In this document: one piece after another, positions 25,965 to 32,221 of the stretch
Numbering within the stretch: the first letter of the stretch is position 1
Layout of the letters: each line of letters begins with the position of its first letter
Assembly: GCA_009391275.1 (NCBI GenBank)
Contig: VEXF01000014.1
Coordinates: 1 to 41,134 of the forward strand
DNA length: 41,134 nt
Source: SAR202 cluster bacterium AD-804-J14_MRT_500m
GTDB taxonomy: Bacteria > Chloroflexota > Dehalococcoidia > UBA3495 > GCA-2712585
Direction of reading: 5' to 3'
The notes under the pieces: generated by a model
Seen by the model: only the letters and a program-made list of their open reading frames with translations
The model's database searches: none
What the model was told of the DNA's origin: nothing
Position numbers and translations under genes: made by a program

Positions 25965-26522
25965 TCAAGCTGAAATGGTTGGCTTAAGTTTATCCACATT
26001 TTCCTTGCGGAACTTCGATAATTTGGGGGATATTACCACTTGGCAGTAAGGTTGGAATTCATTTCTTTGGTAGTATTGTTGGTGGTAATCCTCAGCTGGA
26101 TAGAACTCTTCCAGCGGAACAACCTCGGTCACTATCGGGTCTTCCCACAATCCTGCCCCATCAAGTTCACATATCGTTTCTTCTGCCGCCGTTTTCTGAG
26201 CAGCATCATGGTAAAAAATCGCAGATCTATATGAAGAACCCACATCATAACCCTGCCTATTAAGGGTGGTAGGATCATGAATTGCAAAGAGAATTTTTAA
26301 GACGTCCCGGTAGGACAAAACCCGTCTATCAAATGTGACCTGAACGACTTCAGCGTGCCCGGTCGTCTCGGAGCAAACCTGCTGATATGAGGGATTTGGC
26401 ACATGTCCACCCGAATATCCATTCACTACCTGTTTTACGCCTTTTATCTGTTCATAAACAGCTTCCAAACACCAGAAACAACCTCCCGCCAACGTTGAAA
26501 GCTCTAGCGCATGATCATCCAT
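25965..26522 (-). CDS. msrA: Peptide-methionine (S)-S-oxide reductase MsrA
   Basis: This 185-residue enzyme reduces methionine-S-sulfoxide in proteins or free. The catalytic Cys15 lies in the signature AGGCFWCLEAVY. Other family segments are VVNGYSGGHVPNPSYQQVCSETTGHAEVVQV, here given by its ends VNGYSGG and GHAEVVQVTFD, and LFAIHDPTTLNRQGYDVGSSYRSAIFY, represented by HDPTTLNRQG and GSSYRSAI. The C-terminal PYCQVVISPKLSKFRK is typical. The ATG at 26522 has AGGA 7 nt upstream; a start 12 codons earlier lacks this. No MsrB is adjacent. The catalytic residue is a normal cysteine codon, so unlike the SelW gene upstream it is not a selenoprotein. Confidence 0.96.
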   Translation of the reverse strand: MDDHALELSTLAGGCFWCLEAVYEQIKGVKQVVNGYSGGHVPNPSYQQVCSETTGHAEVVQVTFDRRVLSYRDVLKILFAIHDPTTLNRQGYDVGSSYRSAIFYHDAAQKTAAEETICELDGAGLWEDPIVTEVVPLEEFYPAEDYHQQYYQRNEFQPYCQVVISPKLSKFRKENVDKLKPTISA

Positions 26523-26705
26523 ATTCTTGTCCTTAATAAGAATCGCACAGCAAAACATCGACGCTGTGTTAATTGTTTTCTAGCATACCCCGTTAATTTA
26601 GATCCCAAACAAGAACTGAATCCCGTTTTCCGATCACAAAAAGTGACATCCAATATTCTTATCTGAGATATAAACCCGGTGAATCTATCTGCGTAATTTT
26701 ACTAT

Positions 26706-26760: not shown

Positions 26761-27036
26761 TTAGGCAGCCGGAGTCGGAGCAGCCGCGACTTTTTCCTCG
26801 ATTATGGCCCTAAGTTCACGCACCCGGGTCAAATCAGGATACTTTCCATCTTCTTCATGTCTGTCAAAAATCTTTTCGCCATCGACATAGACTTCAAGAC
26901 GACCGTTAGCACCCGGGGTCAAAGATATTCCGACATCCTTACCACAATGCCTCCAGAACTCATTCGCCATCCACGTGGCGACGGCATGGTATTGTCAAGG
27001 TACACAGTATACGATCTCTACATTTACCTTCCACAT
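26761..27036 (-). CDS. SelW/Rdx-family selenoprotein with in-frame TGA (Sec)
   Basis: Reading from the ATG at 27036, the protein is 91 residues and opens MWKVNVEIVYCVP-Sec-QYHAVATW, with TGA at 26995-26997 as codon 14. This gives the Cys11-x2-Sec14 redox motif at the usual place after the first beta strand in SelW/SelT/SelH (Rdx) proteins. The rest matches the family: LTPGANGRLEVYVDGEKIFDR, then KYPDL. An open frame begins only at Met 23 (26970), but that version would lose the first strand and redox motif and has no ribosome-binding site. The ATG at 27036 has GAGGAGG with 7-nt spacing. A hairpin follows the TGA. Rdx proteins are thioredoxin-fold oxidoreductases. No selenium-insertion gene is in the window, so decoding is inferred. 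Confidence 0.88.
26964..26981 (-). promoter_or_regulatory. Candidate bacterial SECIS hairpin
   Basis: In the mRNA, UCGCC (26981-26977) pairs perfectly with GGCGA (26968-26964) around the 8-nt loop ACGUGGAU. The stem starts 13 nt and the loop 18 nt after the UGA, with a G in the second loop position. This agrees with known bacterial SECIS elements, which sit in the coding region just after UGA and bind SelB. An alternative fold pairs CCAU (26989-26986) with AUGG (26970-26967) and CGU with ACG around a CGCC loop, with one G-G mismatch and one bulged U. Confidence 0.6.
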
Positions 27037-27255
27037 ACGAAAACCTCCTCGATAGCCTATTATCCGCTTTCCTGTTACGCCCATCGGCGTATCTATGATA
27101 ATAATTTAGGCACAAGTTCTTCGTCAAGTGTCAAACTCGATATCTATCCTGTAGATCGACACCTTATAGTAATGGTATAAATTTGTATTATGATGTATGC
27201 CAGCGTACACAAGGGCCCCTACGCCGCGACAATAAGGAAGTCTGATCTTTAAAAA

Positions 27256-27795
27256 ATGACTGCACCTCGAACTCGACAAACAAACTGGCCGGACAGATTC
27301 CGCGACTTATTAGAATTTTCCGGAATATCGGACAACGACCTCAAATCGGTAAAAGCCACCGGGCCGATTATTGTGAAATACGCCGTGAGTCTTACCGATG
27401 AGGTCTATGATCGTATTTTTGAGTTCCCCGCTGCCAAACAATTCTTCGTTGACAAAAATGGCCACCCAGATGCTAAAAGAATCAAAGACAACAAGGACAC
27501 CATGATTCAATGGCTATATTATCTGGCGAAAGCCCCAACAAATGATGGATTCACACGTTATCTTGCTGCGATCAGCTCCATGCATCATACCGTTCCATCG
27601 CATCGCCCCGGTTTGCCAGCCGTGCCGTCTCGGTTTGTGATAGGAACTATCTCTTATTACCAAACTCGTTTATCGGAAATTTTGCAGGATGAGCTTGACG
27701 ATCCTGATGAAGCATCAAGAGCTAGTACCGCATGGAACAAATTCCTCATGGTATCGCTAGATCTATTGCTCGTTGCTTATTTATCAGACTCGTAA
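27256..27795 (+). CDS. Protoglobin-like heme protein
   Basis: This 179-residue all-helical protein fits the protoglobin/globin-sensor family as a single domain. Segments consistent with the fold are IFEFPAAKQFFVD (about 55-66), TMIQWLYYLAKAPTNDGFTRYL (seen as WLYYLAKAP and GFTRYLAAI) and AAISSMHHTVPSHRPGLPAV, where His110 is the probable proximal heme ligand. PSRFVIGTISYYQTRL is the helix after it. There is no attached chemotaxis or cyclase domain. Such proteins bind oxygen, CO or NO; the role is unproven. The ribosome-binding site is weak. It is divergent from the selenoprotein gene, and both are redox-related. Confidence in the globin fold is moderate to high. Confidence 0.75.
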   Translation: MTAPRTRQTNWPDRFRDLLEFSGISDNDLKSVKATGPIIVKYAVSLTDEVYDRIFEFPAAKQFFVDKNGHPDAKRIKDNKDTMIQWLYYLAKAPTNDGFTRYLAAISSMHHTVPSHRPGLPAVPSRFVIGTISYYQTRLSEILQDELDDPDEASRASTAWNKFLMVSLDLLLVAYLSDS

Positions 27796-30511: not shown

Positions 30512-32221
30512 ATGCCTTCAAAAATTAACCGCGATAGTTACGCAGGTTTGTTCGGACCCACCACAGGAGACCGTATCCGTCTCGCTGATACTGAAATCGT
30601 AATTGAAATTGAAGATGATCGGACTGTGTATGGAGATGAAGTAACGTTTGGCGCTGGAAAGGTAATCCGAGAAGGTATGGGACAATCGCCAATTTCACGA
30701 GACGCAGGGTCTGCAGACCTAGTTATTACAAACGCTGTAGTTTTGGATCACTGGGGCATAATTAAGGGAGATATCGGGGTTAGAGATGGTCGTATTATGT
30801 CAGTCGGGAAATCCGGTAACCCTGACATCCAATCCAAAGTAGATATTTTCATCGGCCCAGGAACAGAAATAATCGCGGGTGAAGGTAAAATCGTCACCGC
30901 AGGTGGCATCGACACACATGTCCATTTTATCTCACCCCAGATAATTGAAGAGGCACTGTATAGCGGCATCACCAGTATGCTTGGTGGTGGTACCGGACCC
31001 GCAGAAGGGAGTAAGGCCACAACCTGCACGCCGGGTTCTTGGTATCTCGGGCAAATGCTCCGATCTGCGGAGGGTTTCCCGGTCAACATTGGATTTTATG
31101 GCAAAGGGAATTCTAGCGATCCCAAAGGTCTAATAGAACAAGTAGCAGGGGGCGCTTGTGGTTTTAAAATTCACGAGGATTGGGGAGCCACTCCATCTGC
31201 TATCGATTGCTGTCTCCAGGTAGCTGACGAAACAAACATCCAAGTCATGCTGCACACCGACACCCTGAACGAATCGGGTTTTCTGGAAGAAACGATTGAG
31301 GCCATCCGAGGACGTACAATTCACGCCTTTCATGTAGAGGGAGCTGGCGGAGGGCACGCACCAGACATGTTAAAACTTTGTAGCGCTTCAAATATAATCC
31401 CTTCATCCACAACTCCTACAAGACCTTATACAATTAACACGGTTGATGAGCATCTAGATATGGTGATGGTGTGTCATCATTTGGATCCTAATATCCCAGA
31501 AGATGTTGCCTTTGCCAAGAGTAGAATACGCGGTGAGACTATGGGTGCTGAAGATATTCTTCATGATATGGGGGCTATAAGTATTATCAATTCTGATAGC
31601 CAAGCTATGGGCAGGGCAGGAGAAGTTATCATTAGAACATGGCAGACAGCGGATAAAATGAAGCGGGAGCGCGGCAGGCTCGCGGAAGAAACAGGCGACA
31701 ATGACAACTTCCGAGCAAAACGGTATTTATGTAAGTACACTATCAACCCGGCTATCGCTCAAGGGATCTCTGAACAAGTAGGGTCAATCGAACCGGGAAA
31801 ACTAGCAGACCTTTGCATATGGAGGCCAGGTTTCTTCGGAGTCAAACCAGACCTCATTTTGAAGAACGGGTCGATAGTGGCAGCGCTAATGGGTGACCCC
31901 AACGCATCTATCCCTACCCCGCAACCGACTCATTACAGGCCGATGTTCGGAGCATTTGGATCAGCAATCTACTCTGGATCAGTGATTTTTACTTCGCAGA
32001 TGGCTATCGATCAGAACCTTGGAGAACATCTAGAATTACGCAAAACGCTAATCCCAGTTAAGTCGACTCGAACGATTAACAAGCGATCTATGATCCTCAA
32101 CAAAGAGACCCCCAATATAGAAGTGGACCCGCGCACATACGAGGTTCGATCTAACGGAACGCTTTTGACCTCAGCTCCATCCCGTATTCTCCCTATGGCA
32201 CAACGGTATTTTTTGTTTTGA
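30512..32221 (+). CDS. ureC: Urease alpha (catalytic) subunit
   Basis: This is a 569-residue nickel amidohydrolase that splits urea into ammonia and carbamate. All active-site residues are present, shifted by two from the Klebsiella numbering: His136 and His138 (DTHVHF), carbamylated Lys219 (GFKIHEDWG), His248, His274, the flap Cys321-His322, and Asp362 (NSDSQAMG). GGAGGA lies 6 nt before the ATG; the gap to ureB is 2 nt. With complete catalytic and structural subunits it should be functional if nickel is inserted. No ureD, ureE, ureF or ureG is in the window, so the nickel-loading chaperones must be elsewhere. It is followed after 11 nt by a homocysteine methyltransferase gene. Confidence 0.98.

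Follow-up and report, generated by a model that had tools for sequence, protein, structure and literature searches.

The window, i.e. the whole stretch of 41,134 nucleotides analyzed here from contig VEXF01000014.1 of SAR202 cluster bacterium AD-804-J14_MRT_500m, carries on its minus strand (27036..26761) a gene that encodes a 91-aa protein of the Rdx/SelW type if an in-frame TGA at 26997..26995 is read as selenocysteine. The gene starts with an ATG at 27036-27034, has the TGA as codon 14 and ends with a TAA at 26763-26761, and residues 11-14 of the read-through form make up the motif CVPU (Cys-Val-Pro-Sec). A Shine-Dalgarno sequence, GAGGAGG, lies on the same strand at 27044..27050, with a spacer of 7 nt to the ATG, and a SECIS-type hairpin is found downstream of the TGA (26964..26981, minus strand). 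Conventional gene calling yields only a 69-aa open reading frame (26761-26970), which starts at ATG 26970 inside the loop of this hairpin and lacks both the first strand and the CxxU motif; this short form is already present in the protein database (P0002, on 14 contigs). A preliminary description of the DNA had named the family, the Cys-Val-Pro-Sec motif, the ATG start, the ribosome-binding site and the shortened frame devoid of a redox motif, and all of these were recovered as claimed.

Divergent from the selenoprotein gene, on the plus strand, is a protoglobin gene (27256..27795; PF11563, E 1.2e-23). The two genes stand head-to-head in the window and in three further loci (L001, L002 and L004), and a protoglobin match was found in nine of 15 genomes searched. 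The arrangement points to a common promoter region and, possibly, to a connection with oxygen or NO chemistry. Downstream, the selenoprotein gene is followed on its own strand by msrA in its Cys form (25965..26558; PF01625, E 1.4e-64). As a general link the msrA synteny was dropped, there being no msrA match at E <= 1e-10 in the 46 related loci described below, many of which are short. Elsewhere in the window, the Rfam family 5_ureB_sRNA matched with 81.7 bits on the minus strand at 30667-30953, antisense to an open reading frame (30512-32221) that looks like urease alpha. A comparison of TypA gave no full-length match in the genomes G001-G004, and a search with the CMD family returned one TGA-bearing match, which did not enter any of the counts below.

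Family assignment and structure model

The extended protein was compared with profiles of SelW-type families, and it exceeded the cut-offs of both general models, Pfam PF10262 (Rdx) and TIGR02174 (CXXU_selWTH). With PF10262 the full form gave an E-value of 9.6e-15 (55 bits against a cut-off of 22.6), versus 2.1e-5 for the 69-aa form. The TIGR02174 cut-off of 34.2 bits was passed by the full form only (42.5 bits, E 5.8e-11), the short form remaining below it. The more specific Campylobacter SelTWH equivalog NF041051, with a cut-off of 88 bits, was not reached by the full form (42.5 bits).

A structure model predicted from the single sequence with Cys replacing Sec (mean pLDDT 80) shows the strand and helix order E-H-E-E-E-H, which is that of SelW; a SelW-type thioredoxin-like fold is possible for the protein. 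The first strand of the model spans residues 4-11, so that the CVPU motif is predicted to follow it, as the Rdx/SelW family requires. The three solved relatives that are best by sequence (2ojl, 2fa8 and 2obk) carry Cys at the position of the query's Sec. One database homologue, P0077, reads GAPD instead of CxxU and therefore probably has no redox pair.

Conservation of the UGA codon

A scan of genome contigs identified 46 loci, labelled SAR202, Dehalococcoidia or Chloroflexi/Chloroflexota except for one assigned to Proteobacteria (L005). Codon 14 is spanned by 45 of these, L045 being a fragment, and together with the window the loci comprise 44 distinct sequences around the UGA, here termed near genes. 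In all 45 spanning loci codon 14 is TGA and codon 11 is TGT or TGC. Coding conservation is seen on both sides of the UGA; in the 11 codons 5' of it, differences from the window amount to 198 synonymous versus 118 nonsynonymous.

We further surveyed 294 genomes of the class to which G002 belongs, and fetched 20 Rdx regions for reading. An Rdx match was present in 112 genomes, of which 65 had a TGA-bearing one and 47 had none of that kind. The motif CVPC occupies the Sec position in six genomes (G048, G084, G202, G235, G282 and G322), while tandem pairs of a Sec and a Cys Rdx gene occur in another four (G264, G224, G305 and G141; loci L075, L076, L077 and L078). Since homologues of the same class read CVPC, in some cases as a tandem paralogue, the Sec position aligns with a redox Cys.

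A SECIS-type hairpin

The hairpin consists of the stem halves TCGCCA (26981-26976) and TGGCGA (26969-26964), i.e. six base pairs, around the 6-nt loop CGTGGA (26975-26970), and has a folding energy of -7.8 kcal/mol. According to a figure legend in PMC13188914, the bacterial SECIS model has a loop of 3-9 nt, a stem of 4-16 bp, a G among the first two loop bases, a distance of 16-37 nt from the UGA and a minimum free energy of at most -7.5 kcal/mol. The window's hairpin, with G as its second loop base and a gap of 19 nt between UGA and loop, agrees with the model as given in that legend. The preliminary description was right about the presence of a hairpin, while its figure of 18 nt for the gap was one short.

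Taken alone, the hairpin is weak. Its folding z-score of -0.63 counts against any exceptional stability, and 1059 out of 5000 synonymous recodings reach six pairs, about one in five, so that stability was dropped as stand-alone evidence. The earlier statement that four agreeing signals are hard to explain by chance accordingly overrates the hairpin, but the comparative evidence does exceed chance. At gathering score, Rfam has no family in the gene region, and relaxed settings gave one match at chance level.

Silent positions were compared in the 36 distinct genes that have Thr, Met or Ser at codon +7 from the UGA. Grouping was by the +7 residue alone, as a grouping by silent stem bases would be partly circular; the counts are the same. 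Within this set, Ala at +6 is GCC in 36 out of 36, Thr at +7 is ACG in 29 out of 29, and the codon for Leu or Val at +9 has G as its third base in 32 out of 32 (CTG 20, TTG 11, GTG 1). A standard pair joins the wobble base of codon +5 to that of codon +10 in all 36 genes (CG 27, UG 5, UA 2, AU 2). The silent stem bases are hence frozen while neighboring silent sites vary, as seen in the control codons Ala +4 (GCA 6, GCT 4, GCG 3, GCC 2) and Val -2 (GTA 11, GTG 10, GTC 8, GTT 7).

An alignment of 31 genes from this set, without the remaining five and the eight near genes of the other type, served to assess covariation. Pairing is seen in 96.8% of its cells, a share that is 66.7% or less when the alignment is slid, and no shuffle reaches its covariation score. 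The covariation itself is thin: a single pair of the stem varies at both of its bases (4 cells), and 257 out of 500 shuffles have as many such pairs; the outermost stem pair is broken in 5 of the 31 rows. The eight other near genes have a shifted hairpin with a Trp codon in the loop.

Distant Rdx genes, counted by coordinates, comprise 31 with Sec and 12 with Cys. A simple test for a hairpin of -5 kcal/mol or lower was positive in 38 of the 44 near genes, 26 of the 31 distant Sec genes and none of the 12 Cys homologues, and the published -7.5 kcal/mol was reached in 30, 11 and none of them, respectively. The six near genes above -5 kcal/mol are five of the eight with the shifted hairpin, plus L041.

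The base directly 5' of the UGA

The base preceding the Sec-UGA is T in all 44 distinct Rdx genes (CCT 34, TCT 5, GCT 3, AGT 2). It is likewise T in 20 out of 21 distinct SelD genes (GGT 20, GGC 1), in which the preceding Ala codon varies (GCC 11, GCT 6, GCG 3, GCA 1), and in all four UGSC/UGTC sites found by a motif scan, one of which (L161) has an in-frame TAG. These sites, mostly silent codon positions, are located at position 26998 of the window and in loci L001-L046, L071-L074 and L095-L114. For comparison, a T precedes 5 out of the 13 ordinary TGA stops in the window; among the distant Rdx genes it is found in 10 of the 31 Sec genes and in 3 of the 12 Cys genes, for which reason the pattern is not a general one.

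Part of this pattern could be due to common descent within each gene. A tentative and rather doubtful further reading is that the Sec signal in the SAR202-type group is wider than UGA plus hairpin, and that a U directly 5' of the UGA, near-obligatory in selenoprotein genes of unrelated kinds, helps the ribosome to choose Sec over termination. The observation may be new. Our literature search found no printed report of such a 5' U context, and the passages of PMC12013277 and PMC4513850 available to the search make no mention of it.

Selenocysteine machinery in related genomes

By searching the genomes of 34 relatives, taken from the 46 loci, for selA, selB, selD and tRNA-Sec, we found selB over cut-off in 33, selA in 30 and selD in all 34. 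The best selD match contains one TGA in 33 genomes, and in the last one the TGA is in a separate N-terminal piece. A tRNA-Sec scoring at least 62 bits was present in 30 genomes, and 31 were over the Rfam cut-off of 47; as weaker matches also reach that cut-off, the threshold was set at the gap between 62 and 51 bits. Not all genomes show all four genes, but every one of the 34 has at least two of them. The Sec genes that the preliminary description had predicted for the organism thus occur in the relatives searched, albeit with gaps in some. ARAGORN reported a tRNA-SeC with anticodon UCA in all six loci given to it. In two genomes (L051 and L055), a selenoprotein-like frame with a UGSC motif shares a 3-kb stretch with the tRNA-Sec gene.

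In the class survey, selA was over cut-off in 196 of the 294 genomes. It was found in 55 of the 65 genomes with a TGA-bearing Rdx match, but also in 34 of the 47 Rdx genomes without such a match and in 107 of the 182 genomes without any Rdx match. Being this common where a TGA-bearing match is absent, selA alone is a weak marker, and its use as a strict one was dropped. Among the other 10 genomes with a TGA-bearing match, eight have selB over cut-off and nine a tRNA-Sec of at least 66 bits, and none lacks both. Four of the 13 Rdx genomes with neither TGA nor selA, two of which read as CVPC, served as controls; none of the four had selB over cut-off, and their best tRNA score was 50.3.

Interpretation and alternative readings

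The existence of a gene with an in-frame TGA is confirmed, and its interpretation as a selenoprotein gene is supported. We hold it to be very highly probable that the gene encodes an Rdx/SelW selenoprotein with Sec inserted at UGA codon 14, on the basis of the conserved UGA, the Cys/Sec exchange, the hairpin with its conserved silent bases, the coding conservation on both flanks and the Sec machinery of the relatives. For the organism of the window itself, Sec insertion and the redox role are what we infer from these comparisons. The product would be a small thioredoxin-like oxidoreductase whose active site reads Cys-Val-Pro-Sec. At codon 14, the hairpin just downstream would recruit SelB carrying Sec-tRNA(Sec), whereby selenocysteine would be inserted instead of termination taking place. 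In its mature form the protein probably works through a selenenylsulfide between Cys and Sec, reducing thiols of proteins or of low molecular weight or passing electrons on to them.

Gene callers predict the 69-aa form, and one could accordingly suppose that only this frame is made, from the ATG in the hairpin loop, with the upstream reading being a coincidence or a decayed N-terminus. That is very unlikely. The internal Met23 at which the short frame begins is not conserved, being Leu in 31, Met in 12 and Val in one of the 44 distinct genes; moreover, the codons upstream of the UGA differ mostly synonymously, and the short form would be deprived of the first strand and of the CxxU motif. An altered code or general readthrough, with TGA read as Trp or some other standard amino acid, would fit the Trp found at the Sec position in three database homologues (P0005, P0008 and P0046), which look as if they had been predicted with a TGA=Trp code. 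Against this, 13 of the 35 open reading frames of the window taken as genes have TGA as their stop codon, with TGG occurring 150 times among them; homologues have Cys rather than Trp at the aligned position, and SelB and tRNA-Sec are present in relatives. Such decoding thus appears extremely improbable. Even more negligible is a sequencing error, for instance for a TGT or TGC codon at 26995-26997, or a single pseudogene, for which no support was found: with the TGA kept in 45 out of 45 loci from many assemblies, this explanation is excluded for all practical purposes.

With the Sec reading preferred over these, a short and easily missed gene of uncultured bacteria emerges as almost certainly a selenoprotein gene. 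Counting the window's own copy, it has 89 homologues in the database; 83 of these are at most 76 aa long, and the short ones that were examined start downstream of the UGA and hence have no active site, which is why gene catalogues tend to hide this selenoprotein. JGI has already given many of the database homologues the name "predicted Rdx family selenoprotein". Two testable leads are the divergent protoglobin gene and the U that precedes the Sec-UGA.

Relation to known selenoproteins

An experimental parallel is the SelW of Campylobacter jejuni, a homologue of about 80 aa in which UGA is read as Sec and whose full length past the UGA is documented by Ribo-seq and proteomics in the consulted sections of PMC11955535. 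The protein of the window differs from it by falling far below the Campylobacter equivalog cut-off, as noted above. For Chloroflexi, three selenoproteins of three families are listed in the portion of PMC1794560 available to us. Our literature search, in which SAR202 combined with selenocysteine does return matches, found no paper joining a selenoprotein with SAR202, and the name Chloroflexi has no occurrence in PMC2398784.

Marine SelW-like selenoproteins were catalogued already in 2005 and 2008 (PMC1088965, PMC2398784), so that novelty is low. In the excerpts of these surveys at hand, SelW-like CxxU proteins are the most abundant selenoprotein family both in the Sargasso Sea set (48 genes; PMC1088965) and in GOS (427 genes; PMC2398784). 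The gene of the window is like them in its CxxU motif, its Rdx/SelW type, its bacterial SECIS and its marine source, and no difference of kind was found relative to those excerpts. Almost certainly, then, it joins this well-known marine bacterial family, which makes the finding correct but ordinary. What distinguishes it from the marine surveys is that the gene is here tied to SAR202- and Dehalococcoidia-labelled assemblies together with their Sec genes.
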